NCBI RefSeq assembly: GCF_001592965.1
Contig: NZ_LRPC01000028.1
Span: 310,001-374,000 of the forward strand
Reading direction: 5' to 3'
Source: Roseivirga spongicola
GTDB lineage: Bacteria; Bacteroidota; Bacteroidia; Cytophagales; Cyclobacteriaceae
Length of the DNA: 64,000 nt
The notes beneath the pieces were generated by a model. The model worked only from the letters and a program-made list of their open reading frames with translations, was not told the origin of the DNA and searched no databases. A program made the position numbers and the translations under genes. Of this stretch, positions 2,134-44,356 are shown one piece after another. Position 1 is the stretch's first letter, and the number at the start of each line of letters is the position of its first letter.

Positions 2134-2382
2134 ATGGAAATAAAAAAAAGACTAAAAGACTATTTGGTTCAGAATGTTTTGGATCAAAATGAGGCTGGAC
2201 AGCTATCTGATACTACCACCCTGATTTCAAGTGGAATTGTTGACTCAATCACCACTTTACAACTGGTCGAATTCATTGAAACAGAATTTAACATAGAGTT
2301 TGATGCTCATGAGGTAGATAGGGATAATCTAGATACGCTCATCTTGATTGAAAATTTCGTAGAGCGTAAACGTCAAGGATAA
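2134..2382 (+). CDS. Stand-alone acyl/peptidyl carrier protein (PltL-like)
   Basis: 82 aa, the usual size of a free carrier protein. The phosphopantetheine attachment motif is G-I-V-D-S with Ser38, preceded by the helix-1 region and the TLISSG loop. It ends directly before the adenylation gene (2 bp gap) and opens an operon continuing with a dehydrogenase and a halogenase. This matches the free carrier of pyrrole-2-carboxylate pathways (PltL, RedO, CloN5), on which proline is loaded and oxidised. The carrier fold and serine are seen; the proline cargo is inferred from the neighbours. The upstream 184 bp (1950-2133) must hold the operon promoter, but I see no clear consensus match. Confidence 0.88.
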   Translation: MEIKKRLKDYLVQNVLDQNEAGQLSDTTTLISSGIVDSITTLQLVEFIETEFNIEFDAHEVDRDNLDTLILIENFVERKRQG

Positions 2383-2384
2383 AG

Positions 2385-3890
2385 GTGGATAGGCTTTTAT
2401 CCAACATACTTCTAACACCTTTCTCTGATTATCCTGATAATCCAGCATTTGATTTGCCTGGGGTTGAAGAGCTGACTTATTCAGGGATTAATTGGAGATC
2501 AAACCAGTTGTTAGATTTTCTCAATAGCATTGGAATTGAAAAGGGAGACCGGGTAGCTATTTGGTCCGGAAAAAGCATCGATACCTTGGTTGTATTATTG
2601 GGTGCCGTATTAAATGGTTGTGTTTATATACCCGTAGATAAGCTGGCACCATTGGATAGGTTGAAGGCAATTTTAAGTGATAGTTTGCCTCAAGCTTTAA
2701 TCTTGAATAGTGACGATAAGAGCTCATTAGACCTTGAAGGAATCCCTATAGTTGATAAACGACCGATTCCAAATACCTCTTTGCTCATTTTAAAACTGAA
2801 TTGGTGTAAATCAGAGCTAAAACTTCCATCAGATTTAGCGTTTATTCTCTATACATCCGGATCGACAGGTGTTCCGAAAGGAGTTATGATAACGCATAAA
2901 AATGCACTCAGTTTTATCAATTGGGCTTCAATAAATTTTAGTTTTTCAGAAAATGACATCTTCAGCTCTGTAGCACCTTTTCATTTCGATCTGGCGGTAT
3001 TCGACATTTTTGTAGCTATGGTGCATGGTGCTAAGGTGGTACTAATGGATGAACAAACTATTCGCAATCCTCTGTTGCTTGCTCAGCTTATAGAGGTAAA
3101 GGAGATTACGGTTTGGTATTCAACCCCAACAATTCTCATGCTCATGCTTAGGTATGGAAAGTTGAAACGGAGAAATTACAGTTCAATCCGACATGTATTT
3201 TATGCGGGTGAAGTTTTTCCTAAAGAGCAATTAGTTTCAGTAAAAGAAGTATGGAACAAGGCTGATTTTTATAATCTCTATGGGCCGACAGAAACCAACG
3301 TGTGTACTTGGTGGACCATTCCAAAGAATCTTCCAAATGAATTTAACTCCAGGACAATAGGTGTGAATTGTGGTCATACTCAATGCGAAATCCTGAATGA
3401 GGAAGGATTGGAGAGTGAAATAGGGGAGTTAGTGGTAAGTGGCGATTCTGTGAGCCCGGGGTATTTAAATCGGCCAGAATTAAATAAGTCTAAATTTTTT
3501 GAGGATAGTTCTGGGATCACCTGGTATAGAACTGGAGATCGGGTACAAAGACTTCAAAATGGAGGCTTCAATTATTTGGGTAGAATAGACCGCATGGTAA
3601 AAAAGAGAGGCTACCGGATAGAACTCGATGAGATAGAGACGGTCTTAAATAGTAATGAGAATATTTCCAGAGCAGCGGTAATTAATGAAGTTAGTGAAGA
3701 AGGAGAAATAAGTATCATTGCTTTTGTTGTAGCCTTCAATCCGCAGTTTAGCATAGGTGAAATGAAAGACTATGTTAAGCACAAATTGCCATCTTATATG
3801 CTCCCGGATAAGTGGTTTTTTGTAGATGATTTGCCTCTTACAAGTACGCAAAAAGTAAACTATCAAGACCTTAAACTACTAGTGAAGTAA
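2385..3890 (+). CDS. Stand-alone adenylation enzyme, probable L-proline:carrier-protein ligase (PltF/RedM-like)
   Basis: 501 aa AMP-forming ligase without a fused carrier, the size of PltF. Motif A3 is YTSGSTGVPKG (156-166), A5 is YGPTET (299-304), A7 is YRTGDR, and the A10 lysine lies in TSTQKVNYQ. Mapping the GrsA pocket positions gives D202, L203, F206, Y245, F272, A274, L298, V306, C307. As I recall it, the PltF/RedM prolyl code is DLLYLALVC, which this matches at 7 of 9 positions, with Phe for Leu at the other two. It starts at GTG, 2 bp after the carrier stop. The expected reaction is proline + ATP to prolyl-AMP, then prolyl thioester on the adjacent carrier. A DltA-like role is the alternative. 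Confidence 0.85.
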   Translation: MDRLLSNILLTPFSDYPDNPAFDLPGVEELTYSGINWRSNQLLDFLNSIGIEKGDRVAIWSGKSIDTLVVLLGAVLNGCVYIPVDKLAPLDRLKAILSDSLPQALILNSDDKSSLDLEGIPIVDKRPIPNTSLLILKLNWCKSELKLPSDLAFILYTSGSTGVPKGVMITHKNALSFINWASINFSFSENDIFSSVAPFHFDLAVFDIFVAMVHGAKVVLMDEQTIRNPLLLAQLIEVKEITVWYSTPTILMLMLRYGKLKRRNYSSIRHVFYAGEVFPKEQLVSVKEVWNKADFYNLYGPTETNVCTWWTIPKNLPNEFNSRTIGVNCGHTQCEILNEEGLESEIGELVVSGDSVSPGYLNRPELNKSKFFEDSSGITWYRTGDRVQRLQNGGFNYLGRIDRMVKKRGYRIELDEIETVLNSNENISRAAVINEVSEEGEISIIAFVVAFNPQFSIGEMKDYVKHKLPSYMLPDKWFFVDDLPLTSTQKVNYQDLKLLVK

Positions 3891-3892
3891 CT

Positions 3893-5041
3893 ATGAATTT
3901 TTCTTTTTCACCATACCAAGAGGATATTAAAAATGAGGTTTTAGACTTTGCAAAAAAGCATTTGAATGAGGACATAGTTACTAGAGATAAAAATCAATTT
4001 TTTGATAGAAGTCTCTGGAGTAAGCTTGGTGAAATTAAGTTGCCTGGTTTGTGTATTCCTGAAGAGTTTGGAGGCCGAGGACTTGATCCATTAACCACTG
4101 TTTTAGCTCTTGAGGCTTTTGGAGAAGGTTGCGAAGATGGAGGCCTTTGTTTTGCTGTGTCAGCGCATATGTTGGCCTGCTGCGTTCCTATTTGGCTTTA
4201 TGGCAGCAATGACCAAAAGCAGGCCTTTTTACCAAAGCTTTGCGATGGTACATGGATAGCGGGGAATGCCATGACTGAGCCGCATTCCGGTTCTGATACA
4301 TATGATGTAAGAACCACGGCTGTAGCATGTAAAGACAATTATATTTTAAAAGGTCACAAAAGTTACATTTCTAATGGTCCTGTGGCAGATGTTATACTAA
4401 CCTATGCTTTAACCGATAAAGAGAAAGGCTTCTTTGGAGGTATATCTGCTTTCTTGCTCAGCAAAGAAATGCCTGGATTAACCCTTACAGATTCAGTAGA
4501 TAAAATGGGAGTGAGGACATGCCAAATGGGAGAGGCTAGATTTAAAGATTTAGAACTTTCAACAAATAGTGTTCTTGGCAAAGCTGGTGCCGGAGCAATG
4601 ATTTTTAATAAGTCCATGGAGTGGGAAAGAACCTGTTTGGGAGCCATCCATTTGGGCGCTATGAGTCGTGTTTTAGAGAATACAATTGCCTTTGTTAAAG
4701 AGAGGAAATCGGGAGATAAATCAATAGGGAGTTATCAAGCAATAAGTCATCAATTGGCTGACTTAAAAGTTGGATTGGAGGCTTCAAGACTTATGACTTA
4801 TCAGGCTGCCTGGAAACTTGGTAGTTCTAAGATGAGCACGATGGAAGCCTCTGCCAGTAAGCTCTTTGTGAGTGAGTTTTTTAAAAAGTTTGCCACATCA
4901 ATTTTTCAAATTTATGCTGGTAAAGCCTTTAGGGAGAATCATGAAGCAGAACGTCTGTTGCGAGACGCTATGGCCAGTACCATCTATTCAGGTACATCGG
5001 AAGTTCAAAGAAGTGTTATTGCAAAAATGATGAGAGTATAA
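3893..5041 (+). CDS. Acyl-CoA dehydrogenase-family enzyme, probable prolyl-carrier-protein dehydrogenase (PltE/RedW/CloN3-like)
   Basis: 382 aa flavoprotein with the acyl-CoA dehydrogenase fold: N-terminal helical domain, FAD-binding segment NAMTEPHSGSDT, C-terminal IYSGTSEVQR. The medium-chain-type base in YEGT is absent (Ser instead of Glu). A Glu is present at 245 in the segment MEWERTCLG, which aligns with the isovaleryl-CoA-dehydrogenase base also expected in prolyl-carrier dehydrogenases. Sitting between the adenylation enzyme and a halogenase, it most likely oxidises carrier-bound prolyl to pyrrolyl-2-carboxyl. Gaps to both neighbours are 2 bp. An ordinary short-chain acyl-CoA dehydrogenase is unlikely in this context. 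Confidence 0.82.
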   Translation: MNFSFSPYQEDIKNEVLDFAKKHLNEDIVTRDKNQFFDRSLWSKLGEIKLPGLCIPEEFGGRGLDPLTTVLALEAFGEGCEDGGLCFAVSAHMLACCVPIWLYGSNDQKQAFLPKLCDGTWIAGNAMTEPHSGSDTYDVRTTAVACKDNYILKGHKSYISNGPVADVILTYALTDKEKGFFGGISAFLLSKEMPGLTLTDSVDKMGVRTCQMGEARFKDLELSTNSVLGKAGAGAMIFNKSMEWERTCLGAIHLGAMSRVLENTIAFVKERKSGDKSIGSYQAISHQLADLKVGLEASRLMTYQAAWKLGSSKMSTMEASASKLFVSEFFKKFATSIFQIYAGKAFRENHEAERLLRDAMASTIYSGTSEVQRSVIAKMMRV

Positions 5042-5043
5042 CA

Positions 5044-6375
5044 GTGGATAAGGTTTACGATTTTGTCATTATAGGAGGTGGTCCGGCAGGTAGCACTGCT
5101 GCTTCTAATTTAGCCAGAAATGGATTCAAGGTGTTGGTGCTGGAAAAGGAAAAGTTCCCAAGGTTTCATGTGGGGGAATCTTTATTGCCATTTTGTTACG
5201 GGCTTTTCAAAGATTTGGGAGTGCTGGGTCAAATGGAAAAGGAGTTTAAAAGAAAACCGGGTGTTACATTTTCTAATTCCGATAATACCAATAGTTCTAA
5301 CTGGTGTTTTAATCACCTCATTAAGGACGACTCACACTTATCCTTTCACGTGGAAAGGGATCGGTTCGATAAAATTCTACTGGAAAGAAGTCGTGAACTT
5401 GGTGCTGAGGTATTGGAAGCTACACAAGTTTCAAGCGTTGATTTTTCATCAAACAAACATGTGAAAGTCGTTACCAAAAGCGAGGAATGTTTCCTTGCTA
5501 ATTTTCTAATTGATGCTAGCGGGCAAGACGCTTTTCTCGGAAAGTTGCAGGGTACTAAAAGAAATCAACCACAGCTTAGTCAACGCATTGCCCTTTCTGC
5601 TCACTGGGAAAAGGCTAAACTAGACCCAATATTGAAGGAAGGAAACTTGAGGATTGTTTCCTTAGAAGGAAGAAAGAAGGGTTGGATTTGGATGATTCCA
5701 GTTTCTGACCAAAGACTTAGTGTTGGAGTAGTTGTTGAGCTAGATTACTTCAAAAGCAAGAAAAGAAATGAGAAAAGTAGTTCAAGTGATTGGCTGAGAG
5801 ATTTTTATATAAGTGAGGTTAACTCTTGCAGGTTAGGTAAGGAAGTCTTGACGAGTGCTAAAATGGCGATGGAGGTTGCTGTCAATAGTAACTATTCATT
5901 TGATGTTTCACAAAAGTATGGAGATAGGTTTGCCGTAATTGGAGATGCCGCATCTTTTTTAGACCCTATGTTTGCCAGTGGAGTGTTTGTAGGAATGAAA
6001 AGTGCGATGTTGGTAACCAATGCCCTTCTTAATATAAATGAAGGTGAATATGAAAGTGAGCTTATTGATGCTTACTCTCAGATATCTGGGGCATACCAAT
6101 TATTGGAATTAATGATTACAACTTTCTATAACCCAGATGCCATTAAATTTTCAGAATTAGATCATGGGTCTATAAGTGAGTATAAAAAGCTGGATACAGT
6201 TTTTGGCATAATGCACTTAGTTCTGGCAGGAGATTTTTTTTCCAACCATAAGAACTACCTGAAAGCAATAGAGGTGTTGTCAAGTGCAAAAATGGTAGAA
6301 AGGTTTCGTCACCTTACTAATCATACGGATACTCAAACTTCGCAGGTTTGTACAAAAAGTATGTTGTCTATATAG
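5044..6375 (+). CDS. Flavin-dependent halogenase (PltA-like), probable pyrrolyl-carrier halogenase
   Basis: 443 aa, close to PltA length. The FAD-binding motif is IIGGGPAGSTAA (about 9-20), followed by FPRFHVGESLLP. Lys71 in FKRKPGVTF sits at the place of the catalytic lysine of PrnA (K79) and PltA (K73). The halogenase hallmark G-W-x-W-x-I-P is present at 213-219, and GDAASFLDPMFASG closes the FAD site. The reduced flavin reductase partner is not visible nearby. With the carrier, adenylation and dehydrogenase genes upstream (GTG start 2 bp after the previous stop), the likely substrate is the carrier-bound pyrrole ring. A non-halogenating monooxygenase of the same fold cannot be excluded; number and kind of halogens are unknown. 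Confidence 0.8.
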   Translation: MDKVYDFVIIGGGPAGSTAASNLARNGFKVLVLEKEKFPRFHVGESLLPFCYGLFKDLGVLGQMEKEFKRKPGVTFSNSDNTNSSNWCFNHLIKDDSHLSFHVERDRFDKILLERSRELGAEVLEATQVSSVDFSSNKHVKVVTKSEECFLANFLIDASGQDAFLGKLQGTKRNQPQLSQRIALSAHWEKAKLDPILKEGNLRIVSLEGRKKGWIWMIPVSDQRLSVGVVVELDYFKSKKRNEKSSSSDWLRDFYISEVNSCRLGKEVLTSAKMAMEVAVNSNYSFDVSQKYGDRFAVIGDAASFLDPMFASGVFVGMKSAMLVTNALLNINEGEYESELIDAYSQISGAYQLLELMITTFYNPDAIKFSELDHGSISEYKKLDTVFGIMHLVLAGDFFSNHKNYLKAIEVLSSAKMVERFRHLTNHTDTQTSQVCTKSMLSI

Positions 6376-6382
6376 CCGTACC

Positions 6383-6387
6383 GGAGG
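6383..6387 (+). promoter_or_regulatory. Strong Shine-Dalgarno that sets the start of the next gene
   Basis: GGAGG lies 8 nt before ATG 6396 and follows the halogenase stop codon. It supports ATG 6396 rather than the upstream in-frame TTG at 6348, which lies inside the halogenase gene. Confidence 0.7.
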
Positions 6388-6395
6388 TTAAGAAA

Positions 6396-7490
6396 ATGAA
6401 TCTTGCTAAGCAGAAAAATAAGAAAGATAATTCCACAATGAGCTCCTCTATATCAATAGTCATTGCAGCCCATGTGTTGGATTCGAAACTCAGGCGTTGT
6501 TTGAATGCCGTTTCGTCTTACTCTACCGAAAATCTGGCCGAGGTAGTTTTGGTTCTGGATGGAATTGATAGGGCGAACCAGTTTTTCGATAATGTTGACT
6601 CTACTGATTTAAAAGTTATTAGCCTGGATAAATCTTATGGACCTGCTTACGCAAGAAATATCGGAGCTTCTCAGGCAAGAGCAGATGTCTTGTTTTTTCT
6701 TGATTCTGACGTAGAAATAAGTGCCGATACTCTTTCTAAGGTTGCAGATCATTTTTTATCTCCCAACGCTCCTGATGCCCTAATAGGTTCTTATGATGAT
6801 GAACCCGCAGAAACCTCGGTAGTATCCAGATTTCGTAATCTTCTCCATTATTATACTCATCAGCAAGCCTCAGATGAGGCTAGCACATTTTGGGGGGCTT
6901 GTGGAGCCATTAGAAAAGATGCTTTTGTACAAATAGGTGGTTTCAATACGGATTTTTCAAAACCAAGTGTCGAAGATATTGAACTCGGATATCGCTTAAA
7001 ATTGAAAGGATATAGAATTAAGCTTAATAAAGAATTACAAGTTAAACATCTGAAAAAGTGGTCTTTTAAAAGTATGGTTGAAACGGATGTGTTTTTAAGA
7101 GCAAAACCATGGACCGAACTTCTCTTTCAATATAAACAATGGGGAAAGAGAGATTTGAATGTGAAGAATTCCGAACGGGCCGCTGTATTCATACTGTGCA
7201 TGTTGTTGATCAGTCTCGGTTTTGGTTTATTTTACACATACGCGCTTTTTCTTTCTCTTGCTTTCTTTTTAATACTGCTAGTAATAAAGAGAAACGTTTA
7301 CTTTTTCCTTTCTAAACACTTTCGTCAACAGCTTCCTATAGTGATCATTTTGCATTGGACTTACTTAATTAGTGGAGCCTTTGGCTTGGTATTAGGTCTG
7401 GTTTCACACTTTTTCAAGGGACAAAAGCAGAACAGTGTTTCATTTGCCGATTCATCTCTTATCTACGATACAACTAAACCCAAGGTATGA
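6396..7490 (+). CDS. GT2-family glycosyltransferase with C-terminal membrane segments
   Basis: 364 aa. The GT-A fold starts at [10 protein letters not shown], with [12 protein letters not shown], the metal-binding FLDSDVEIS, and [17 protein letters not shown] followed by the acceptor-loop [10 protein letters not shown]. Residues from about 260 to 340 form about three hydrophobic segments, so the enzyme sits on the inner membrane. Family members transfer sugars from nucleotide or lipid-linked donors; donor and acceptor cannot be told from sequence. The stop overlaps the next start by 4 bp (ATGA), showing translational coupling. Confidence 0.85.
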
Positions 7491-9058
7491 TAAACGAGGG
7501 AAATAATACTGTTGTCATAATTGGGGCCGGTCCTGCTGGTTTAACAGCAGCTTACGAGCTTTCAACTAGAAGTTCGAAGCGGATAATTGTCATTGAAGCA
7601 GATAGTCAGGTGGGAGGAATTAGTAAAACGGTAGACTATAAAGGCAATAAAATAGATATAGGGGGGCATAGGTTTTTTTCTAAGTCCGACTGGGTGTTGA
7701 ATTGGTGGCAAAAATTTCTTCCAATTCTGGCTCCTGAAGATGAAGTGGTAGCCACTTATCATAATAGGCAGAAGACTATAAAAATTGATCAAAGAGCAAG
7801 CCCTGATAGGCCTCATATGCTTATTAGGCCTCGAAAGTCAAGAATTTACTACAACAAAAAGCTTTTTGAATACCCTATTAAGTTGAACTTGAATACCCTT
7901 CTTAAAATCGGTTTATGGAAGAGTATAAAGATTCTGTTTTCAATTCTTTACAGCAGGGTATTTCCTAGAAAAGAAGAACAGAGCTTAGAAGACTTTTACG
8001 TGAATAGATTTGGTTACGAGTTGTATTCAACGTTTTTCAAAGACTATACTGAAAAAGTATGGGGCAAAAAGTGCACCGAAATCAGTGCGGAATGGGGGCG
8101 TCAACGTGTAAAGGGACTTAGTTTAAGAAAGATAATAAGGCATTATCTCACCACACTATTCTATCCTTCAAAACAGTCTTTTGCTAGTGAAGAAACTGAG
8201 CAAACCTTAACTGAGTATTTTCTCTACCCTCAATGCGGGCCTGGGCAGTTATGGGAGACCGTTGCTTCTAAGTGTATTGAAAATGGTGTAGAGATTAGGT
8301 TAAATCAAGTAGTTGACTCTATTGATTTTATGAGTGGGCAAGTTTGCGGAGCTACATGCACAAACTTGGTTACTAGAGAAAGGGAGTTGATAAGATGTCA
8401 AGACATTATTTCTACCATGCCTGTAAGAAACCTAGTTCGCAGTATGAATGGTGTTGTACCGAATGCTATTCGCAATATAGCCTCTGACTTAGAGTATAGA
8501 GAGTTTTTGATTGTTGGGTTGTTGCTTGATGAACTTGTACTCAAAGACAAAAATGGTTTGGATGTAAAGGATAATTGGCTATACATTCAGGAAGGTGATG
8601 TCAAACTCGGCAGAGTTCAGCTATTTCATAATTGGAGCCCATATATGGTGGCTGAAAAGGGCAAGTACTGGATTGGTGCTGAGTATTTCTGCCAAAAGGG
8701 GGATGATCTATGGACACTGTCGGAAACCGATTTGACTGCTTTGGCAATCGAGGAACTATCTAGGATCGGAATTATCGATAGGTCGAAAGTATTGGACAGT
8801 ACTGTAGTTAAGATGCCTAAGGCGTATCCTTCTTATGTGGGAAGCTATAACGAATTCAGTAAGGTTAAAACCTACTTTAACTCCATAAGCAACCTCTATC
8901 TCATTGGAAGGAATGGAACCCATCGATATAATAATCAAGATCATTCTATGCTCACTGCCAAAGAGGCTGTAGACAACTTAATAAATAAGGTAACTGATCA
9001 TAGTAATATATGGGCTGTAAATACAGAAATGATATATAATGAAGAATTGGAAGCCTAG
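7487..9058 (+). CDS. FAD-dependent oxidoreductase of the UDP-galactopyranose mutase/amine-oxidase fold
   Basis: 523 aa. The N-terminal dinucleotide-binding motif is [17 protein letters not shown], followed by IEADSQVGG and IDIGGHRFF, and near the C-terminus [19 protein letters not shown]. This long UGM-like family is common in glycan gene clusters and is usually annotated only as NAD(P)/FAD-dependent oxidoreductase. A role in making an unusual sugar (ring contraction or redox) is a guess from the neighbours. It overlaps the previous gene by 4 bp and the next by 20 bp. Confidence 0.8.
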
Positions 9059-10577
9059 TTACGTAGAAGTGCTTATCGGTTTGATAGTTTTTTTATCAGG
9101 GTGCTCTGTAGTTATTGCAGTTATGCCTAATGAATGTTTTTTTTATGGAAATGCTGACGTTGATCTAAGTCCGGTGGGGATGGCTTTGAGTAAAGCGTAT
9201 TTTAATTATTTTGACCTTATCAACTTCAAAAATCAAGGATATATAAATAATGGTGAGTTTCATTTTTATAGAAATTGGCCACCTTTGCACTTTTGGCTTC
9301 TAAGTAAATGGTATGGGATAGTGGGGGTAGAATCAATACAAGCTGCTAGATACTTCTCTGTAATTATTTATGGGATTACCAGTTTGTTTTTCTATTGGTT
9401 ACTTGTTAAAAAACATAGATTATCAATAAGGGTCTCCCTAATTTCCTCGATTGTCTTTATGCTTTTACCTGTTAATCTAGAGTCGTCTTATTACATATAT
9501 TCAGACATCTGGGTTAATCTTTTCTGGCTACTAGCAATTTTACTTCTTGCCAATCCTAAGAAACTCTACTTTGGAGTTTTTGCGGTTGTCTGTGTTATAG
9601 GCTTTTTCTTTCATTGGTTTATCATATTTCTTTTGCCGGCATATATCACTTATCATATTCTTTCTAAAGTGCGGCATGGTAAGGTTAACAGGTTCTTTAT
9701 TTTTTCTTTTTTTTTTATAGTAATCCTTAGTCTTGTTTTTCTCCATTCGATTTCAACAGATAGTACGCTTATTCTTGCATTAGAAGAGCATTCGACACTA
9801 GGCCTGTTTAACGGAAATGCTCCTTATTTATGGATGGGAACCAAACAGATGGTGCTTTTGTTTTTTAGTGTTTTTGTGTTGTTTTTTTTAAAAAGGCAGT
9901 TTTCAAAACTTTCACTCAAATCACTTATCGGATTATTAAAGACTGAGCAATACAGTGGACTTTGGTATTCATTCAGTTTAATCATAATAGCTCTTCTCAT
10001 ACTATTAGTATTCATGTTGCAGTGGTTTGTTGTTCACAGACACGCCTTTATGTTTTTATCTGTTCCTTTGGGCTTATGTTTTGCATATTTTCTATCAATT
10101 ATTGAAGAGAGATCATCAGGAAGTATAATCTTGTTAGGACTAAGTTCTATCATCATATGTGTAGCTCAGTATTTGATATTGTATGGTGTGACTTACTATA
10201 GGCATGGTAAGATTCAAGTTCAAGATGAGAACATCTCAGAGTTTATTGTTCAGAGAAAACCATCCAAATCACTTAAGTCGAATATATTTTTTAATATTAA
10301 TTCAAGTATTAATAATAGAAGAAGAATAAACAAGTTTGCAATTAGAGAAAGAACCGACTCGTATATTTTTGAACTAGACTCATTGTTATTTGTGGATAGA
10401 TTGGATGAACAAATGGTTTTGAGTATTCAAAAGCTTAAAGCCTTAAATGCACTTGGTGCTGATGAGTCTTCTGCGTTCTTGATTACTGAAAGATTAGTGG
10501 ATTACGGAGATTTACGGTTGATCGATTCAGCAGTCTATAACAATATTATAGTCTATCAACTGGATGTAGAAAGGTGA
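9039..10577 (+). CDS. Multispanning membrane glycosyltransferase, GT39/ArnT-like (GT-C fold)
   Basis: 512 aa with about 10 hydrophobic segments and a C-terminal soluble tail (about 380-512). The first loop has [16 protein letters not shown] followed by [11 protein letters not shown], the pattern in which GT39 enzymes carry their PPL/acceptor motif. GT-C enzymes use polyprenyl-phosphate sugars on the periplasmic side. Here it could add a sugar to the exported glycan or a lipid. It starts inside the end of the preceding gene (20-bp overlap). The DNA is very A+T-rich with long T tracts. Family assignment is from motif pattern only. Confidence 0.65.
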
Positions 10578-10581
10578 AGGA

Positions 10582-11448
10582 GTGTTAGTATCAATTATAA
10601 TTCCTACATATAACAGGCCTGACCAATTAAACCGATGTTTGACAGCTCTGTTGAACCAAAGCTACTCAGGTGCTTGGGAGGTAATAGTGGTCGATGATGG
10701 AGGAGAGTTTCCGTTGAAAAGTATTGAAGAGTTCTTCCAACCAGATTTGCGCTGTAGTTTTTTACATCAAGAAAATTCAGGACCTGCTAAAGCAAGAAAT
10801 TATGGTGTTGCTATGGCTAAGGGTGAGTTTATAGCCTTTTTAGATGATGATTGTGAGCCAGAAGAAGACTGGTTGGAGCATTTAATGAATGCAGCCAAAG
10901 AGGGTGTAATGGTTGGGGGTAAAACGCAGAACAAATTGGGTAGGAATCTGTATTCAGATGCCAGTCAAAGTCTTGTTTCTTACTTATATGAATACTTTAG
11001 AGAAACACCTTGGTACTTTTTTACATCTAATAATTTACTGGTCGATAGAAAGACCTTTTTGGCGGTGGGAGGGTTTGATACACACTTCCGAACCTCTGCT
11101 GGGGAAGACCGGGCCTTCTGCGCCAAATGGTTGGCCAGAGGTTTTCAAATGAAATATGAGCAGAAGGCAATTATTGATCATGCGCATGGATTGGGCTTCT
11201 TCTCTTTTTGGAGGTTGCACAGAAAGTATGGAGAGGCAATTGACCAATATAGAGAGGTGCTAACTGAACATGATGTGCCGCCAATGCCGTTTAGGGCTCA
11301 ATTTTATTGGGGCTTATTGAAATGGCCATTTGTGTTCGCGCAATTAAGCTTTTCCAAAAGAATAGCTACCTCCATTCTTTTCAGTATTTCACAATTGGCC
11401 ACATTTACAGCCTTTATTAAAACTCGTTTTGGTTCTGAGAGCAAATGA
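10582..11448 (+). CDS. GT2-family glycosyltransferase
   Basis: 288 aa, GTG start. It begins VSIIIPTYNRPDQL, carries GPAKARNYGVA, the metal-binding FLDDDCEPEEDW, and SAGEDRAFCAKW in the acceptor region, a complete GT-A enzyme. No convincing membrane helix is seen, so it is probably a peripheral cytoplasmic enzyme adding a sugar to the lipid-linked glycan. It is 4 bp after the GT39-like gene and overlaps the next gene by 4 bp (ATGA). Confidence 0.85.
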   Translation: MLVSIIIPTYNRPDQLNRCLTALLNQSYSGAWEVIVVDDGGEFPLKSIEEFFQPDLRCSFLHQENSGPAKARNYGVAMAKGEFIAFLDDDCEPEEDWLEHLMNAAKEGVMVGGKTQNKLGRNLYSDASQSLVSYLYEYFRETPWYFFTSNNLLVDRKTFLAVGGFDTHFRTSAGEDRAFCAKWLARGFQMKYEQKAIIDHAHGLGFFSFWRLHRKYGEAIDQYREVLTEHDVPPMPFRAQFYWGLLKWPFVFAQLSFSKRIATSILFSISQLATFTAFIKTRFGSESK

Positions 11449-13889
11449 ATACCCTAAATAAACATAGAGGCCTCATATTTATATTTGCTCAGCTTGTAAT
11501 TGTAGCTGGCTTTCTATGGCATTTCAATATTGAAGAGGCATTTAATCTTCCACGAATATTTCCTGTTTTTATACTCATAATTTTGTTGAATGCGGTAATT
11601 CCTCTTAAACGGAGGAGACTCTTCAGTACCCTGTCTACCGCGGGAGTTTTATTCCTAATTCTTCCTCCGTTAGAGGCTATATTGTTACTGGTGTTTTCAG
11701 TAGGAATTCTTGCTCTTTGTAATCTAACTCTAGATATAAGATGGAAGAAGGTAATGCTGATATCCATCGCGGTTTGTTTTGCATTGGTTGTAGGTGGTGT
11801 TTGGCGAGTACCTTGGCTAGGCTCCTCAATGCTGGTGATCCTTTCTAGTATGTTCATGTTCAGGTTGATACTGTTTCTTTATGAGATGAAATATCAGAGA
11901 ACTAAGCTTTCGTTTACGGATCAGTTAGGGTATTTCTTACTTCTTCCAAACCTTATTTTTCCTCTATTTCCTGTAGTTGATTACAAGCTTTATCAAAGTA
12001 ATTACTATCAGAGAGATGAATTGGAAATATATAAGAGGGGAGCTGGTTTAGTAGCGAAAGGAGTATTTCACCTATTCGTATACAGAATAATATACTCCTA
12101 TTTATTGCCAGAGATTTCTGAACTTACTACTCAGGTTAATTTGCTTAAATACCTCGTGTTTTCTTATTTATTGACAATCAGACTTTCAGGTATTTTTCAT
12201 TTTTCTGTTGGTGTGTTATGCCTTTTGGGCTATGATTTACCAGATATTTTTAAGAACCATTTTGCTGCTTCCGGCTTTGGTGATTTATGGAGAAGAATCA
12301 ACATTTATTGGAAAGACTTTATTGTCAAGGTTTACTTCAATCCACTGTATTTTAGGCTAAAGAAGTACGGAACTAAAGTGGCTATTTTTTGGGTGACTCT
12401 ACTATCATTTGCTATCACTCTGCTTCTTCATGATTATCAGTTTTTCTGGCTGACGGGTGTTTTTGATGTAGATGTTACCGATGTGATATTTTGGGGCTTC
12501 TTTGGCTTTACTATAGCCTTCGGTACAATTCTTTCATCAAAAAGAGCTTTAGAGAAGAGTGTTGCTAGTAAAGCTTTTGATGCTGCTCTAAAAATCTTGG
12601 GTACCTTTTTAATAATGTCCGTTCTCTGGTCTATTTGGTCCAGCGAAAGCTTATCAAGCTGGTGGTGGTTAATTAGAAATTCATGGTCCAGTCAGACTAG
12701 TGAGATACTAGAACTACTTTTGGTTCTAGTTGTGCCGCTACTTGCCTTATGGGTATCGAATTACTTTCTCCTTCGAAAAAACAATAAAGTAATTTCCGAT
12801 ATAATCATGCCCAACTTGTTTTGGCCAATAGCGATGTTAACCTTAGTATTAGTTTTTAATACTGCTACTTTGAAAGGGTTTTGGAATGAAAGGCTTGAAG
12901 GGAAAAATATACAGGCTCTATTTCACTTCACCCTAAACCCTGATGATAGAGAGGTACAGTTGGCAGGGTATTATGACAATATGTTAGATAATCATAGTCT
13001 GATGAGCCCTATTATCAACGGTAATAATGACTATATAATGTCTGAGTTGTTTAGACAGGAAATCTATGGCAAAAAGGTCTTGCTAAAAACTAACGATGCT
13101 AGATATACAAATTTAGCCGCTTCTAAAACAACTGATGTTACAGGAATAGAAATTGATATTAATCAATGGGGAATGAGGGATGATGATATTGAGAAAACCC
13201 CAATTGATAATAAGTATCGCATAGCACTTGCAGGAGGGTCTGTCGAAATGGGCTGGATGATTCCCAAAGAGCAGAGGTTTGACGATCTAATAGAGTTGGA
13301 GCTAAAAAGCAAAGGATACAATTTCGATATTCTAAATTTTTCTGTGCCTGGACGTCTATTTATCAACTCAGCGTATACCGCTAAAGAAGAGATTTTGGAC
13401 TTTAACCCAGACGTTTTGCTAATGTTTTACCATCCTCACCTAGAATGGATTCACATAAAGAATCGTTTGAGCGGATATGATTTTTCTCTCGAATATGATG
13501 GTGCTATATACGATTTATATGAATCTTCAAATTTGTTAAGGACCAAAGGAAAATCATTAGATAAGCTATTAGATTCGAGAAAGGAAGGGATTTTAAATAA
13601 GATTTTTTTTGAGGTTAAGAAAGCTTGTGACCAGTCGGGAGTAGAACTTTTGATAGTAAATATGCCTGTATTTTCTGAGTACCAATGGGAGGAAAATGAT
13701 TTAGACCTGATGATTGCGGAGGAGTTGGGTATTAATGTCCTAGATATTTCTCAAGCATTACATCCAAATGAAGCAGCCGATTATACTCTAGATTTTGGAG
13801 GGCATCCAAACGTAAAGGGGCATCAATTAATTTTTGATAATCTTTATCCATATCTGCATGATTTGGTTAAGAAAAATGCGAGTAAATAA
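11445..13889 (+). CDS. MBOAT acyltransferase fused to a C-terminal SGNH-like domain (DltB+DltD-like)
   Basis: 814 aa. Residues 1 to about 500 form a polytopic MBOAT region: RRINIYWKDF at 283-292 followed by the conserved membrane His329 in LLHDYQFFW. Residues from about 590 onward form an SGNH/GDSL-like domain with Ser599 in LAGGSVEMG and His787 in DFGGHPN. MBOAT enzymes move acyl groups from cytoplasmic thioesters to extracytoplasmic acceptors; in the Dlt pathway a carrier-bound residue passes via DltB (MBOAT) to DltD (SGNH-like). The same operon supplies a carrier and an adenylation enzyme, so this protein is the best candidate for transferring the pyrrolyl group to the glycan. An O-acetylase is the alternative. 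Confidence 0.78.
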   Translation: MNTLNKHRGLIFIFAQLVIVAGFLWHFNIEEAFNLPRIFPVFILIILLNAVIPLKRRRLFSTLSTAGVLFLILPPLEAILLLVFSVGILALCNLTLDIRWKKVMLISIAVCFALVVGGVWRVPWLGSSMLVILSSMFMFRLILFLYEMKYQRTKLSFTDQLGYFLLLPNLIFPLFPVVDYKLYQSNYYQRDELEIYKRGAGLVAKGVFHLFVYRIIYSYLLPEISELTTQVNLLKYLVFSYLLTIRLSGIFHFSVGVLCLLGYDLPDIFKNHFAASGFGDLWRRINIYWKDFIVKVYFNPLYFRLKKYGTKVAIFWVTLLSFAITLLLHDYQFFWLTGVFDVDVTDVIFWGFFGFTIAFGTILSSKRALEKSVASKAFDAALKILGTFLIMSVLWSIWSSESLSSWWWLIRNSWSSQTSEILELLLVLVVPLLALWVSNYFLLRKNNKVISDIIMPNLFWPIAMLTLVLVFNTATLKGFWNERLEGKNIQALFHFTLNPDDREVQLAGYYDNMLDNHSLMSPIINGNNDYIMSELFRQEIYGKKVLLKTNDARYTNLAASKTTDVTGIEIDINQWGMRDDDIEKTPIDNKYRIALAGGSVEMGWMIPKEQRFDDLIELELKSKGYNFDILNFSVPGRLFINSAYTAKEEILDFNPDVLLMFYHPHLEWIHIKNRLSGYDFSLEYDGAIYDLYESSNLLRTKGKSLDKLLDSRKEGILNKIFFEVKKACDQSGVELLIVNMPVFSEYQWEENDLDLMIAEELGINVLDISQALHPNEAADYTLDFGGHPNVKGHQLIFDNLYPYLHDLVKKNASK

Positions 13890-13903
13890 AGAGTACTTTT
13901 ATT

Positions 13904-14746
13904 ATGGAAATAAGGAAAAGGTATATAGATCTCCTCAAAATGGCTCTTTTGAATGAGCATTATCTTGAAAATGAGTTAAGAATACAAGCCTTGGCTGAAG
14001 GTTGGGTACAGGGCAAGTCTTTACTCAACAGGAGAATCGCTTATGAGAAGCTTCATAATATTAAAAAGTATTATGCCTCCGAGTTCGAACTCATGAAAGA
14101 GAGGAGAAATGAAGGGAGGCACTTAGCTGAGGGGTCTCAACATTTGGTATATGCTCATACTATGATAGGAAGAAAAAGAATGGATAATATTCAGAGATGC
14201 TTTGAACAACTAATTTCAGAGAATATTCAAGGAGATTTAATTGAGTGCGGAGTATGGAATGGTGGTGCCACTATTTTTATGGCAGGTCTTCTTCAGGCTT
14301 ACCAAGAACATGATCGTAAGGTGTGGGTGGCAGATTCTTTTGATGGTGTTCCAGTCCCAGAATTGGAAGAAGACAAAGAGTTCGACATTAGCAAAAAGGT
14401 GTTTCCCGGGTTGGCAGTTGGGCTTGAAGAGGTGAAAAACAACTTTGATAAATATGATTTACTAAAGGAGAATGTTGAATTTTTACCTGGCCTTTTCTCC
14501 AGCACTTTGCCCAATGCACCTATAAATGAAATAGCCGTGCTCCGTCTCGATGGAGATCTTTACGAATCTACCATGGACTCTCTTAACGCTTTGTATGATA
14601 GGGTGGTTTCAGGTGGTTTTGTTATAGTGGATGATTATGGAGTGTTGCCTCCTTGTAAGAAAGCGGTTGACGAGTTTAGAGAAAAAAGAAATATTAGTAA
14701 TAGCTATCAATGGATAGATTGGTCTGGGATTTACTGGAGGAAATGA
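13904..14746 (+). CDS. TylF/MycF/NovP-family sugar O-methyltransferase
   Basis: 280 aa. SAM-binding DLIECGVWNGGATIFMAG, then VWVADSFDGVP, the metal-binding RLDGDLYESTMDSL and VDDYGVLPPCKKAVDEF are the TylF-family signature. Known members (TylF, MycF, NovP) are Mg-dependent enzymes that methylate hydroxyls of deoxysugars. An N-terminal extension of about 80 residues precedes the catalytic core. Its place next to glycosyltransferases and an exporter suggests methylation of a glycan sugar, perhaps as a capping step. Confidence 0.87.
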   Translation: MEIRKRYIDLLKMALLNEHYLENELRIQALAEGWVQGKSLLNRRIAYEKLHNIKKYYASEFELMKERRNEGRHLAEGSQHLVYAHTMIGRKRMDNIQRCFEQLISENIQGDLIECGVWNGGATIFMAGLLQAYQEHDRKVWVADSFDGVPVPELEEDKEFDISKKVFPGLAVGLEEVKNNFDKYDLLKENVEFLPGLFSSTLPNAPINEIAVLRLDGDLYESTMDSLNALYDRVVSGGFVIVDDYGVLPPCKKAVDEFREKRNISNSYQWIDWSGIYWRK

Positions 14747-14758
14747 AATTCTATTAAA

Positions 14759-15583
14759 GTGAAAAAGGAAGAGTTTTTAATTTCTAGTAAGCCTATTCTG
14801 TGGGAAGAGTTACGACTCATTTCTAAATATCGTAATGTTCTATATGTGCTAAGTTGGAGAAACCTCCGGCTACAGTATAATAGCTTTTGGTTGGGTTTAT
14901 TTTGGGGCGTGTTGAACCCAATGATAATGACAGCTATCTTCTTTTTTGTTCTTGGGAATAAGGTTGGTTCTGATTTAGAAAATTACATCCTCTACATCTA
15001 CTCAGGCTTTATTTTTTGGAACGTTTTGGCTGGAAGCACAGGTAGTTCTGCTAGCTGCTTTCAAGATAATTTTAGTTTAATTAAGAAGGTTTACTTTCCC
15101 CGATTTTTAATGCCATTTAGTCATGTGATTTCGAAATTACCAGACCTTGCAATTTCTTTTATGGCGCTTCTTTTTGCATTGTTGTACTTTAATCTTGATG
15201 TTAATATTTATCAGTTTGCATTTTTCACTCTTCTGTCAATTATTGATCTAGTACTTTTTGGGGTAGGATTATGTCTAATTGCTTCTGTGTTAACTGTTCG
15301 GTTTAAGGGGTTTTCTGTAATTCAACCGCTATTGACGCAGGCTTTCTTTTTTGTTTCTCCAATCATTTTTGACATTAATTTGACCATTGAAAATAGCTTG
15401 GTGAGAGCATTAATTAGGCTGAATGTTTTTACGGGGATTTTGGAGATTTTTAGATTTGGTATTTTTAATCACAGTATTTCAACGCATATAGTTGTAATCT
15501 ACTCAGTATGTGCATTTCTCATATGCATATGCGGTTTAGTGCTTTTTAATTATGAGGATGTAACTCTTTCGGATAAAATTTAG
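14759..15583 (+). CDS. ABC-2-type polysaccharide exporter permease (Wzm/TagG-like)
   Basis: 274 aa, GTG start, about six membrane segments. The amphipathic entry RNVLYVLSWRNLRLQY followed by WLGLFWGVLNPM is typical of Wzm/TagG permeases. It pairs with the ATPase gene 5 bp downstream and would carry the lipid-linked glycan across the inner membrane. Its presence places this island in the ABC-transporter-dependent pathway, unlike the Wzx/Wzy cluster at 32-47 kb. Confidence 0.9.
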   Translation: MKKEEFLISSKPILWEELRLISKYRNVLYVLSWRNLRLQYNSFWLGLFWGVLNPMIMTAIFFFVLGNKVGSDLENYILYIYSGFIFWNVLAGSTGSSASCFQDNFSLIKKVYFPRFLMPFSHVISKLPDLAISFMALLFALLYFNLDVNIYQFAFFTLLSIIDLVLFGVGLCLIASVLTVRFKGFSVIQPLLTQAFFFVSPIIFDINLTIENSLVRALIRLNVFTGILEIFRFGIFNHSISTHIVVIYSVCAFLICICGLVLFNYEDVTLSDKI

Positions 15584-15588
15584 ATAGT

Positions 15589-16272
15589 ATGGTACAGGCC
15601 TGCAATATCAGCAAACACTACTTTAAACACTATAATCTGTTGCACGCTAAAGATGGGTTTTATGCGTTAAGAGATATTTCATTTACCGTACATGCGGGAG
15701 ATCATGTCGCTCTAATTGGTGATAATGGATCTGGAAAGTCTACACTCTTGAAAATCCTTAGTCGTGTCACTCGACCATCAGAAGGAAACTTAAGAGTAAG
15801 TGGTCGCCTTGTTTCCATGCTTGAATTAGGAGCAGGATTTCACCCGGATTTAACCGGTGAGGAAAATGTTTATTTCTTAGGTGGTCTTATGGGCCTATCT
15901 AGGACTGAAATTAACTCAAAATTGCACGAGATTATTCGCTTTTCCGAAATGCAAGACTTTATGAGTATGAAGGTTAAGAGTTATTCAAACGGTATGATTA
16001 TACGTTTGGCACTTGGTGTTGCTTTGACAAATAAACCTAAAGTCATATTGGCTGATGAAGTATTTTCAGTATTGGATAAAGGATTTAAGATTAAGTGTAT
16101 TGAAAAAATTGAACGTATAAAGAATGAAGGTGTTGCAATAATCTTGGCAGATCACGATTTTGAGTCATTGCGTTCTGTTTGTAATAAGGCGATTTGGTTG
16201 CGAAAAGGAGAGATATTTAAAACCGGAGAAATCGACTCAATTTTGAGTGAATACGAAGCTTCTAAAAGATAA
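15589..16272 (+). CDS. ABC polysaccharide exporter ATPase (Wzt/TagH-like), no C-terminal glycan-binding domain
   Basis: 227 aa. Walker A GDNGSGKST, the Q-loop region with GAGFHPDLTGEENV, signature YSNGMIIRLALG and Walker B VILADEVFSVLD, then the switch His in DHDFESL. The GAGFHPDLTG segment is typical of Wzt/TagH. The protein ends after the nucleotide-binding domain, so it lacks the C-terminal carbohydrate-binding module used by O9a-type Wzt to recognise capped chains. It ends the plus-strand operon, 1 bp from the end of the convergent operon. Confidence 0.9.
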   Translation: MVQACNISKHYFKHYNLLHAKDGFYALRDISFTVHAGDHVALIGDNGSGKSTLLKILSRVTRPSEGNLRVSGRLVSMLELGAGFHPDLTGEENVYFLGGLMGLSRTEINSKLHEIIRFSEMQDFMSMKVKSYSNGMIIRLALGVALTNKPKVILADEVFSVLDKGFKIKCIEKIERIKNEGVAIILADHDFESLRSVCNKAIWLRKGEIFKTGEIDSILSEYEASKR

Positions 16273-16273: not shown

Positions 16274-16909
16274 TTACTTAACTAGAACACCTAAACCTCC
16301 CCAACTACCCCAGCCTCTATCGTCATATTCTGGGTCAATGATTTCTACAACAGAGTGTTGTTGTTTCAATTCGTTCCAAAACTTATCGACCTGACAATCT
16401 TTTACCTGATCGTGATGCGCAATATCATGTAAAACAATTAGCCCACCGTTTTTTACATATTTGGAATACCTGTTATAGTCGTCCTTAACACCTTCATAGG
16501 TATGATCACCATCGATAAAAAGTAGGTCCAACTCTTTTTCATTCAAGACTTCACATAATTTAGATTCGGTTTTTGGAGAATGAGAGTTTTTACGAATGAG
16601 GCTTACGGTTTGATTTGGTTTCTTGTAACCTAAAAGAAGTTTTTCATTATATGTTCGACCATTATTGAATCTGCCTAAGGGTAGATCTATGCTGGTTAAC
16701 TGAGCTGTTGAAGAAGCAAGTTGACACCATAGCCAAAATGTTCCGCCACTAGCCGATCCAATTTCCAAAACGTTGTTTAGTTTTGGCTTTTGTTTGAGTA
16801 AATCAACTAGCTGAGTCAGTTCTTTATTCTTTTGAACTGCTCCGTAGAAGATACTTAGTTCAGCTAATTTTTCTGATGTCATAGTTGAAATTCGCCTATT
16901 ATGATTCAT
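16274..16909 (-). CDS. Class I SAM methyltransferase (CmcI/Methyltransf_24-like)
   Basis: 211 aa. The SAM motif is NVLEIGSASGGTFWLW. LLFIDGDHTYEGVKDDY and GGLIVLHDIAHHD carry acidic and histidine residues that could bind a metal, as in CmcI/rhamnosyl O-methyltransferases. It is the last gene of the minus-strand island operon; its start overlaps the previous stop by 1 bp. A sugar O-methyltransferase acting on the island glycan is the likely role, the second one in the island beside the TylF-type enzyme. Confidence 0.78.
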   Translation of the reverse strand: MNHNRRISTMTSEKLAELSIFYGAVQKNKELTQLVDLLKQKPKLNNVLEIGSASGGTFWLWCQLASSTAQLTSIDLPLGRFNNGRTYNEKLLLGYKKPNQTVSLIRKNSHSPKTESKLCEVLNEKELDLLFIDGDHTYEGVKDDYNRYSKYVKNGGLIVLHDIAHHDQVKDCQVDKFWNELKQQHSVVEIIDPEYDDRGWGSWGGLGVLVK

Positions 16910-17928
16910 TATTGATTTGACTGAGGATTGTCACTGCCTAGTCTCTTAACAATTCTTTCCGCCCACTCCGTATGGACGCTTTGAACTGGGTGTCCATCGT
17001 TTTCAATGGTGTTTTCATGAGACAGCGGCACATTACAATCTATATAGGGGATGTCGTTGTGTTGAAAAAAAGAGGTGAGATTGTCTATTTCTTTAGGCTC
17101 CTCGTACAAGATTGCTACTTGAAAATCTATATCATAGGTTTGACACAATTCCTGCATTTTTAAAACAAGCTTTTCAAAAATACCATTTGCATGCTCCACT
17201 CTCTTTTTAGACTGAAAGTTTAAATATGCTACCTGTAAGCTGTAAACAGACACAAGGTGTTTAGCAAGAGGGATTTGATATACTTCAAATGGATCATGTC
17301 TTAAAAGTTCTCCTGAAGCATTCATAGTAACATAGGGGACTTTCACATGTTGAGTGCCTCTTATGTCGTGCATAAGCATTGCCCAATTGCCTTCTGCAAC
17401 ATTTCTTAATTTGTGATGAGCTATATACCCATAGATAACCTGTTTTGGACGATTGCCATTTTTTAACTCATTTTCTAGTACCAAAAGTGACTGATAAGTG
17501 CCATAGGCTCCAACAGCCTTATTTTTTATTTTGAGGTTCTTTACTTCATTCTGAACTTTCCAAGCTACATGTTCTTGGTTGCTTAGACCCCAGCCAAAAG
17601 TGAATGAGCCACCTATAAACAGTAATTCATCTTTGTATTCAACAGTGTTTGTGCTTGTTTTTCTGCTTCCATCATTCGCGATAGTGATATTCACACTATC
17701 TAGAGATGCTGAGTTAGGGGGCAATAGAAATTCTCCCGGAATGTGCTTCCACCCTAATTGCTCATCTAACTGCATTATTGGCTTTTTTCGGACAGGTCTG
17801 GCAGGAGGAAGCTGGTGACCTTTTAATCGTAGAATACATTCTAACAATAACAGTGTGAGAATCACAATTGAAATGAATTGAAGTGTTCTCTTGAAGGCTT
17901 GTTGAATAATATGGTGGCGCTTTGGCAT
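16909..17928 (-). CDS. Membrane-anchored SGNH/GDSL-like protein
   Basis: 339 aa. One N-terminal membrane helix (about 15-33), then an extracytoplasmic domain with FIGGSFTFGWG (Ser108 as nucleophile) and a C-terminal DGHP motif as the Asp/His pair. Such proteins act in glycan O-acylation or deacylation, like DltD or AlgJ/AlgX. It could be an esterase or acyl relay for the decorations on the island glycan, separate from the SGNH domain fused to the MBOAT at 11445. Catalysis has not been shown for this branch. Confidence 0.7.
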   Translation of the reverse strand: MPKRHHIIQQAFKRTLQFISIVILTLLLLECILRLKGHQLPPARPVRKKPIMQLDEQLGWKHIPGEFLLPPNSASLDSVNITIANDGSRKTSTNTVEYKDELLFIGGSFTFGWGLSNQEHVAWKVQNEVKNLKIKNKAVGAYGTYQSLLVLENELKNGNRPKQVIYGYIAHHKLRNVAEGNWAMLMHDIRGTQHVKVPYVTMNASGELLRHDPFEVYQIPLAKHLVSVYSLQVAYLNFQSKKRVEHANGIFEKLVLKMQELCQTYDIDFQVAILYEEPKEIDNLTSFFQHNDIPYIDCNVPLSHENTIENDGHPVQSVHTEWAERIVKRLGSDNPQSNQ

Positions 17929-19761: not shown

Positions 19762-20083
19762 ATAGATGATCCCTTTTTTTAAAATAGCTTAAATGTTCTT
19801 TTTTAAGGTCTAAGCCAGATCCTGTAAGTGTTCTTTTGAGCAGGGCAATAGGGGTTAAAACAACGAAAAAAATGACTGAGAGTAGAATTCTAGAATTAAC
19901 ATAACCAAGTATGCTGCCAACTCTATACCACCCTCTTACTATAAGATCTGCAATTTTTTTAGATAAAAGTGACAAAGTGCCGATAGCCAGTGATGTATAT
20001 ATCATCCATTCTTTATCGAAGATTATATTCAGAAATAAAAACCCTGTACAGATTGTTAAAATGGAAGAGTAAACCTTGCTCAT
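19730..20083 (-). CDS. SxtJ-family small membrane protein
   Basis: 117 aa with hydrophobic segments at about 6-38 and 68-84 and a charged C-terminal tail. Size, layout and place directly after a carbamoyltransferase and a DUF5989 gene match the SxtJ family, named from the saxitoxin cluster, where it accompanies the carbamoyltransferase SxtI. Its function is not known to me; a membrane anchor or partner for the carbamoyltransferase is a guess from repeated co-occurrence. Confidence 0.72.
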   Translation of the reverse strand: MSKVYSSILTICTGFLFLNIIFDKEWMIYTSLAIGTLSLLSKKIADLIVRGWYRVGSILGYVNSRILLSVIFFVVLTPIALLKRTLTGSGLDLKKEHLSYFKKRDHLFEKSDFEKPW

Positions 20084-20089
20084 GACTAA

Positions 20090-20239
20090 CTAAAAAAGGG
20101 AATAGATGAATGGAGCAGCAGCCGATCCACCACCTAAAACAAGTAAGAGACCTAGTAGCAAAAGAGTGATAATTATGGGGGCGAGCCACCATTTCTTGCG
20201 TTCTTTCAAAAAGTTGAATATGTCTTTTATAGATTCCAT
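20090..20239 (-). CDS. DUF5989-type 49-aa membrane protein
   Basis: A 49-residue protein read from ATG 20239: a basic N-terminus MESIKDIFNFLKERKKWW, one hydrophobic helix rich in Ile/Leu, and the ending GGGSAAAPFIYSLF. This pattern (a charged FLKERKKWW followed by a helix and APFIYxLF) is that of DUF5989, a tiny protein found beside carbamoyltransferases and SxtJ proteins. It lies 4 bp after the carbamoyltransferase stop and 6 bp before the SxtJ start codon. Function unknown. Confidence 0.82.
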   Translation of the reverse strand: MESIKDIFNFLKERKKWWLAPIIITLLLLGLLLVLGGGSAAAPFIYSLF

Positions 20240-20243
20240 TTTC

Positions 20244-44353: not shown

Positions 44354-44356
44354 GGC

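Follow-up and report, generated by a model that had tools for sequence, protein, structure and literature searches.

What purpose would be served by joining, in one operon, enzymes that form pyrrole on a carrier protein and a membrane acyltransferase resembling that of the Dlt system? The question is raised by the operon at 2134 to 16272 of a 64,000-nucleotide stretch of the Roseivirga spongicola genome (contig NZ_LRPC01000028.1, positions 310,001 to 374,000; hereafter the window), whose genes are listed in Table 1. Judging from protein families, conserved residues and genomic context, we think it probable that the operon makes a pyrrole-2-carboxyl thioester, probably halogenated, and passes it through the membrane, likely via a tyrosine ester, onto an extracellular glycan. 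The link between thiotemplated pyrrole chemistry and a Dlt-like MBOAT-SGNH acyltransferase is well supported because it recurs in unrelated bacteria. The chemistry and the acceptor are predictions; the locus itself is real, and more general than a first, sequence-only reading of the window had suggested.

The first four genes, separated from one another by two-base gaps, had been read as a free carrier protein, a proline-type adenylation enzyme, a prolyl dehydrogenase-like enzyme and a PltA-like halogenase, and family and structure-database matches bear out all four. The carrier (PF00550) scores under the cut-off of the DltC equivalog model (NCBIfam), and the equivalent of its phosphopantetheine serine is kept in 54 of 54 related carriers. 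For the specificity region of the adenylation enzyme the top PDB match is an L-proline--[prolyl-carrier] ligase (6o6e, E 6.4e-25), followed by a DltA-type entry (7vhv, E 7e-18) and a further proline ligase (7thn, E 7.5e-16); with the whole protein, two-module gramicidin synthetases come out on top and then 6o6e. At nine aligned positions that we take to form the specificity code, the window has DLFYFALVC, identical to 6o6e (DLLYLALVC) at seven and to the DltA entry (DLMVFCTVA) at four. The pattern DL.Y.ALV[CV] is found in 43 of 44 neighbouring adenylation orthologues, each of at least 200 bits; lower-scoring matches (e.g. L013 and L056, 77-80 bits) were excluded from this count. The DltA equivalog model TIGR01734 gives 308 bits against a cut-off of 559.85, below what marks a D-alanine-specific DltA, and the enzyme is predicted to be of the proline type.

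The best NCBIfam models for the dehydrogenase are prodigiosin PigA (403 bits, below the cut-off of 500) and RedW, and its best PDB match is the prolyl-ACP (acyl carrier protein) dehydrogenase 4irn (E 2.6e-97). In the alignment Glu245 stands opposite Glu in 5zw0 and Ala in 6af6, and this catalytic Glu is kept in 37 of 37 related rows, consistent with a prolyl-carrier dehydrogenase. The halogenase matches PltA first (5dbj, E 3.6e-45), with 3e1t and CmlS close behind. It keeps the motifs GGGPAGS, GESL and WIWMIP, and the fixed letters of WxWxIP (W214, W216, I218, P219) are present in 10 of 10 related halogenase rows; position 311 is Ala in the window and Ser in nine of the ten relatives.

The acyltransferase had been described as an MBOAT-SGNH fusion. 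As the Pfam MBOAT family (PF03062) has no match across the whole genome, the fold was decided by an AlphaFold model and structure comparison; a sequence profile search of the PDB with the MBOAT alignment has no MBOAT entry among the matches listed. The model agrees with the description: residues 31-412 match DltB and residues from about 544 to 810 match SGNH esterases. The predicted layout is a DltB-fold MBOAT core with a conserved His (His329), two further membrane helices, a Gly-Tyr-Tyr motif at 508-510 and the fused SGNH domain, in which Ser599 is found in 77 of 77 and His787 in 76 of 77 related loci. The Tyr-Tyr pair is invariant among relatives and is a candidate for the acyl shuttle in place of FXYXXF. 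Several related loci (L006, L010, L021 and others) contain two to five MBOAT-SGNH open frames or fragments each.

Relatives were collected by scanning genome contigs with a profile of the MBOAT alignment. The best 80 of 222 stretches represent 77 distinct loci, which are the closest part of a larger family and were picked by the MBOAT and not by pyrrole genes. Carrier, adenylation enzyme and dehydrogenase occur together in 28 of them and with a halogenase in another 8; the others have carrier and adenylation enzyme (8), carrier only (9), carrier and dehydrogenase (1), halogenase only (2) or none of these (21). Less than 5 kb is available on one side of 42 loci; of the 35 with 5 kb or more on each side, 26 carry the carrier, adenylation and dehydrogenase genes. 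Going by record titles, the 36 full sets are spread over seven phyla (Pseudomonadota 19, Bacteroidota 7, Candidatus Hydrogenedentota 3, Verrucomicrobiota 2, Gemmatimonadota 2, Acidobacteriota 2, Rhodothermota 1) and include named strains of Mesorhizobium, Lewinella, Neolewinella, Pseudothauera and Paraglaciecola. The genes are contiguous in the order MBOAT, carrier, adenylation enzyme, dehydrogenase in 16 loci, and with a halogenase in 3 more; 7 Mesorhizobium loci have the same order with the carrier below threshold. We conclude that the core unit consists of the MBOAT-SGNH, carrier, adenylation and dehydrogenase genes, and that the halogenase and glycan genes are lineage-specific partners. 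The proposed union of pyrrole chemistry with a Dlt-like acyltransferase is therefore upheld by its recurrence, whereas the halogenase falls outside the conserved unit. In two proteobacterial loci an amino-acid-kinase-family protein adjoins the cassette (L054, 16633-17661; L062, 7372-8385); L054 additionally has a second AMP-binding protein there, and a polysaccharide deacetylase.

The association is also seen at the level of genomes. The 32 genomes behind 37 loci (the loci without a full set plus L001; L019, L023, L046 and L070, unlabelled in the MBOAT tree, were left out) were checked for the dehydrogenase, which is present at E<=1e-70 in 19 of 32, or in 18 of 31 without the genome of L001; one of these genomes (G316) also holds the full-set locus L034, and without it the count is 17 of 30. 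Some of these matches may lie just past the locus flank, as in L005, where the flank ends before the dehydrogenase and the gene is found on contig 84 of the same genome, next to a halogenase. In a sample of 295 genomes of the class, the dehydrogenase (E<=1e-70, window's own genome included) is found in 6, the MBOAT (E<=1e-40) in 9 and both in 5. With the window's genome removed, 4 have both, 4 the MBOAT only, 1 the dehydrogenase only and 285 neither (Fisher p 1.1e-6, a value that ignores kinship, three of the four double positives belonging to one family). The locus is patchy in the window's own family, since the MBOAT is found in none of the six other sampled genomes.

The two nearest relatives of the window in the MBOAT tree are an Arenicella locus (L001, Pseudomonadota) and a second Roseivirga locus (L002, Bacteroidota), and many glycan-export genes of the window are common to both. 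L001 retains the full set including the halogenase, in the order carrier, adenylation enzyme, dehydrogenase, halogenase, MBOAT. L002 has the carrier, adenylation enzyme and MBOAT with an adenylation code of ALFYCAQVCK, which lacks the Asp that binds the amino group. In the L002 genome, a metagenome bin, neither a dehydrogenase (E<=1e-70) nor a halogenase (E<=1e-30) is detected. Because the code is changed and the ring-forming enzymes are absent while the acyltransferase and glycan genes are retained, this one case suggests that the acyl group can be exchanged while acyltransferase and glycan stay. Where the window has its TylF gene beside Wzm, both relatives have a gene that by eye is sulfotransferase-like (L002, 12427-13077; L001, 19409-20047); such genes recur at other loci, with and without a halogenase.

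The expected co-occurrence of halogenase and MBOAT-SGNH gene is found within the window's clade of the MBOAT tree: 11 of its 21 rows, and 0 of the 57 others, have a halogenase in their flanks (counted at >=250 bits, which leaves out a 112-bit match in L069). The tree has 78 rows and was made by a quick method, and many flanks end at contig ends. With the halogenase seen only in flanks of this clade, the pyrrole cassette seems to be the wider trait and halogenation something added to it. In two protein searches several top MBOAT and halogenase relatives report contigs of equal size (e.g. 86,346; 24,156; 399,387; 110,645), which suggests, without proving, that they are linked. The length of 110,645 bases is reported by three different halogenase relatives (P0125, P0126, P0134) as well as by MBOAT relative P0009, a coincidence that hints at multiple halogenation.

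We infer that the acceptor is a glycan. An exported glycan, as first proposed, fits the window and its two nearest relatives, all of which have GT2 enzymes and an ABC exporter, and most Mesorhizobium loci; in one of these (L030) a flippase and GT4 enzymes are encoded along with a sulfotransferase and with transferases for pyruvyl and sugar-phosphate groups. It fits less well where cassettes stand amid non-glycan genes. Glycan genes, searched for by BLAST with a limited query set, turn up in 18 of the 36 loci that reach 17 kb vs 0 of 13 control stretches from six of the genomes; several queries were drawn from L030, L022, L055 and the window, which makes L030 and L022 self-matching, and Wzt was left out of the set for being too general. 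These counts, together with Pfam scans of flanks (20 genes in seven loci, only two of them in L062), rule out that all cassettes lie within glycan loci. Beside the cassette of L059, for example, are genes for a PEP-CTERM protein and a member of the beta-lactamase family. Where a cassette stands alone, its acceptor has to come from elsewhere, a glycan being one option among others. The window has a second polysaccharide locus (33743-46235, minus strand) with GT2, Wzx-like flippase, GT4 and AT3 acyltransferase genes, and this could supply the acceptor.

Read from family, residues and context, the mechanism would run as follows. The adenylation enzyme would load L-proline onto the phosphopantetheine of the carrier, the dehydrogenase, using flavin adenine dinucleotide (FAD), would carry out a four-electron oxidation to pyrrolyl-carrier, and in this MBOAT clade the flavin halogenase would halogenate the carrier-bound ring. 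The MBOAT part (His329) would then take the acyl group over from the carrier and place it on Tyr509 or Tyr510, beyond the two extra membrane helices, and the fused SGNH domain (Ser599/His787) would move it from tyrosine to a sugar hydroxyl, leaving an ester on a glycan that the GT2 enzymes build and the Wzm/Wzt pair exports.

Several results weigh against this reading. The carrier, adenylation enzyme, dehydrogenase and halogenase reach no listed equivalog cut-off (among the 25 best models for two of them), and the DltX/PatA motif FXYXXF does not occur in the MBOAT-SGNH protein. In 13 of 31 MBOAT genomes, most of them metagenome bins by title, no dehydrogenase is detected at E<=1e-70. The sequence-only reading had expected homologous operons to keep both dehydrogenase and halogenase; regular absence is seen for the halogenase, present in the available flanks of only 10 of 77 loci, and not for the dehydrogenase. 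In the limited BLAST search, 13 of 27 cassette loci (including L037, whose adenylation frame is below threshold) have glycan genes, a figure that becomes 8 of 21 when Mesorhizobium is represented once; of the eight cassette loci positive for a glycosyltransferase, six come from closely related Mesorhizobium. The scanned flanks of L028, L057, L061 and L074 (10 genes) are non-glycan (GGDEF, chemotaxis, transporters, lon), and that of L054 has rho, but the polysaccharide deacetylase as well.

To our knowledge, all characterised pyrrole-from-proline pathways serve small molecules. The pyrrolyl group might accordingly end up on a small natural product, a secreted glycoside or glycolipid exported by Wzm/Wzt, and not on a surface polymer. 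That would accord with those pathways (excerpts of PMC10849742) and with clorobiocin, which bears a pyrrole-2-carboxyl ester on its noviose sugar (excerpts of PMC11218499). We consider it unlikely, as the acyltransferase is a membrane MBOAT fused to SGNH, pairs of which acylate envelope polymers (excerpts of PMC12148441), as Pfam finds no non-ribosomal peptide synthetase (NRPS) or polyketide synthase (PKS) genes among the operon's proteins, and as the Mesorhizobium cassette L030 lies in a polysaccharide locus. The nature of the transferred group might differ instead. The best PDB match of the dehydrogenase, 4irn, is an anatoxin biosynthesis enzyme and a two-electron oxidase there; an enzyme that halted likewise at the pyrroline would deliver a dehydroprolyl group, which is quite improbable given that the best NCBIfam models are PigA and RedW and that a relative of PltA, whose family acts on carrier-bound pyrrole, is present here and in 8 of 36 other full sets. 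Somewhat less improbable, though still doubtful, is that the halogenase-like flavoprotein hydroxylates or otherwise oxidizes the ring without adding halogen: monooxygenase and reductase models match it too and position 311 departs from the Ser of its relatives, but the PDB entries it matches best are halogenases (PltA, an unnamed one, CmlS and others), and WxWxIP is intact throughout. To the idea that pyrrole genes and MBOAT are chance neighbours in separate pathways we give next to no credence; several kb separate them in L022, L067 and L072, but a compact cassette recurs, full sets occur in seven phyla, and this recurrence together with the genome-level co-occurrence led us to reject chance.

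The probable pyrrolylation of a glycan can be set beside known systems. The Dlt system (DltA/B/C/D/X) D-alanylates teichoic acids by an acyl-Tyr shuttle mechanism (excerpts of PMC12148441 and PMC3783018). The locus shares with it an adenylation enzyme, a free carrier, a DltB-fold MBOAT, an SGNH domain and a probable acyl-Tyr shuttle. It differs in its proline-type code, in the predicted dehydrogenase and halogenase acting on the carrier-bound group, in the fusion of MBOAT and SGNH, in Gly-Tyr-Tyr replacing FXYXXF and in its occurrence here mostly in Gram-negative phyla. It may work like Dlt, yet it is not classed as a member because both D-alanine specificity and the FXYXXF motif were looked for and neither was found. 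PatA/PatB and AlgI-type acetylation likewise combine an MBOAT core with an SGNH transferase, and PatA also has two extra membrane helices with a Tyr motif (excerpts of PMC12148441 and PMC9487903), but PatA uses acetyl-CoA and two separate proteins where the window has a carrier protein and a fusion. AlmEFG, which places glycine on Vibrio cholerae lipid A, is another Gram-negative set of adenylation enzyme, carrier and acyltransferase that attaches an amino acid to a surface glycolipid (excerpts of PMC3783018); AlmG is of the LPLAT type and not an MBOAT, and AlmEFG is without ring oxidation or halogenation.

Proline adenylation, carrier, dehydrogenase and PltA-type halogenase are shared with the thiotemplated pathways of pyoluteorin (Plt), prodigiosin (Pig/Red), clorobiocin (Clo) and the bromopyrroles (Bmp), and the operon appears to contain such a pathway. 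In coumermycin a pyrrole-2-carboxyl ester is carried on a noviose hydroxyl; clorobiocin and coumermycin are small antibiotics made by soluble enzymes without a transmembrane step. No NRPS/PKS hand-off of the thiotemplated pyrrole logic (excerpts of PMC10849742) is seen in the operon, and a transmembrane acyltransferase stands in its place. The predicted product resembles the sugar-hydroxyl ester of clorobiocin (excerpts of PMC11218499).

The operon genes are open reading frames on a single strand, as had been claimed, and Pfam matches confirm the TylF methyltransferase and the Wzm/Wzt exporter (Table 1). An FAD oxidoreductase of the PRK07208 family had been omitted from the earlier gene list. 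Of three glycosyltransferases claimed, two are GT2 enzymes; the third (9039-10577) is not supported as one, its product matching neither Pfam (at E<=0.001) nor NCBIfam models, a word-limited protein search returning only itself, and a three-sequence structure model being poor (predicted local distance difference test, pLDDT, 42). The locus probably extends to about 20083 on the opposite strand, because homologues of GT2c and GT2d are found in both L001 and L002, and one of the SGNH-like protein in L002. Scanned for sigma-70 promoters and terminators, the operon showed no excess over shuffles. A phosphopantetheinyl transferase family match is present elsewhere in the genome. At the end of the glycan locus (19730-22130, minus strand) a small membrane protein of the SxtJ family, SxtJ being a family name only, adjoins a large carbamoyltransferase, and a PorP/SprF-like type IX secretion protein fused to an OmpA domain is encoded at 253-1884.

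Table 1. Genes of the operon and the adjoining opposite-strand genes, in window coordinates.
Product	Position	Strand	Basis
Free carrier protein (acyl or peptidyl carrier protein, ACP/PCP)	2134..2382	+	PF00550 E 2.6e-4; phosphopantetheine Ser38 in GIVDS
Proline-type adenylation enzyme (predicted)	2385..3890	+	PF00501/PF13193; code DLFYFALVCK
Prolyl-carrier dehydrogenase (predicted), acyl-CoA dehydrogenase fold	3893..5041	+	PDB and NCBIfam matches; Glu245
PltA-related flavin-dependent halogenase (predicted)	5044..6375	+	Pfam, PDB match, WxWxIP
GT2a glycosyltransferase (GT2)	6396..7490	+	PF00535; homologues in L001 and L002
FAD oxidoreductase, PRK07208 family, weakly UDP-galactopyranose-mutase-like	7487..9058	+	NF005546 707 bits, cut-off 418
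Multi-pass membrane protein, at most glycosyltransferase-C-like	9039..10577	+	Homologues in L001 and L002
GT2b glycosyltransferase (GT2)	10582..11448	+	PF00535 E 1.1e-32; homologues in L001 and L002
MBOAT-SGNH fusion, 814 aa	11445..13889	+	AlphaFold model, structure comparison, conserved residues
TylF-type O-methyltransferase	13904..14746	+	PF05711 E 1.9e-92
Wzm-like ABC exporter permease	14759..15583	+	PF01061; homologues in L001 and L002
Wzt-like ABC exporter ATPase, 227 aa	15589..16272	+	PF00005; homologues in L001 and L002
Methyltransf_24 methyltransferase, possibly same glycan locus	16274..16909	-	PF13578; no homologue seen in L001/L002
SGNH-like protein	16909..17928	-	L002 homologue, 40% identity; SGNH motifs by eye; no Pfam match
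GT2c glycosyltransferase (GT2)	17942..18904	-	Pfam; homologues in L001 and L002
GT2d glycosyltransferase (GT2)	18841..19761	-	Pfam; homologues in L001 and L002

A literature search by title and start of abstract, with subscription journals mostly outside its scope, listed no paper joining pyrrole formation with MBOAT or Dlt; the string 'pyrrol' is absent from the excerpts of PMC12148441 and PMC9487903, and the words Bacteroidetes, polysaccharide and MBOAT do not occur in the main text of PMC8269204, which surveys bacterial flavin halogenases. We regard it as an even call that the loci form a transmembrane acylation family of at least seven phyla, in which a proline-derived pyrrole-2-carboxyl group is built on a Dlt-like carrier and installed outside the cytoplasm by a one-protein MBOAT-SGNH with its own tyrosine shuttle, one clade halogenating the ring first to give halopyrrole-decorated surface glycans, and the acyl group being swappable, as in the Roseivirga locus L002 with its changed adenylation code and loss of ring-forming enzymes. 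This is directly testable, because full sets occur in named strains. If true, it would join the carrier-bound pyrrole formation of antibiotics and pigments with Dlt-type envelope acylation, so far known apart, and would show the acyl group of Dlt-like systems to be exchangeable. It would also provide, in MBOAT, shuttle and SGNH, a single-protein model for transmembrane acyl transfer, and would add an aromatic, possibly halogenated, substituent to those of bacterial surface glycans.

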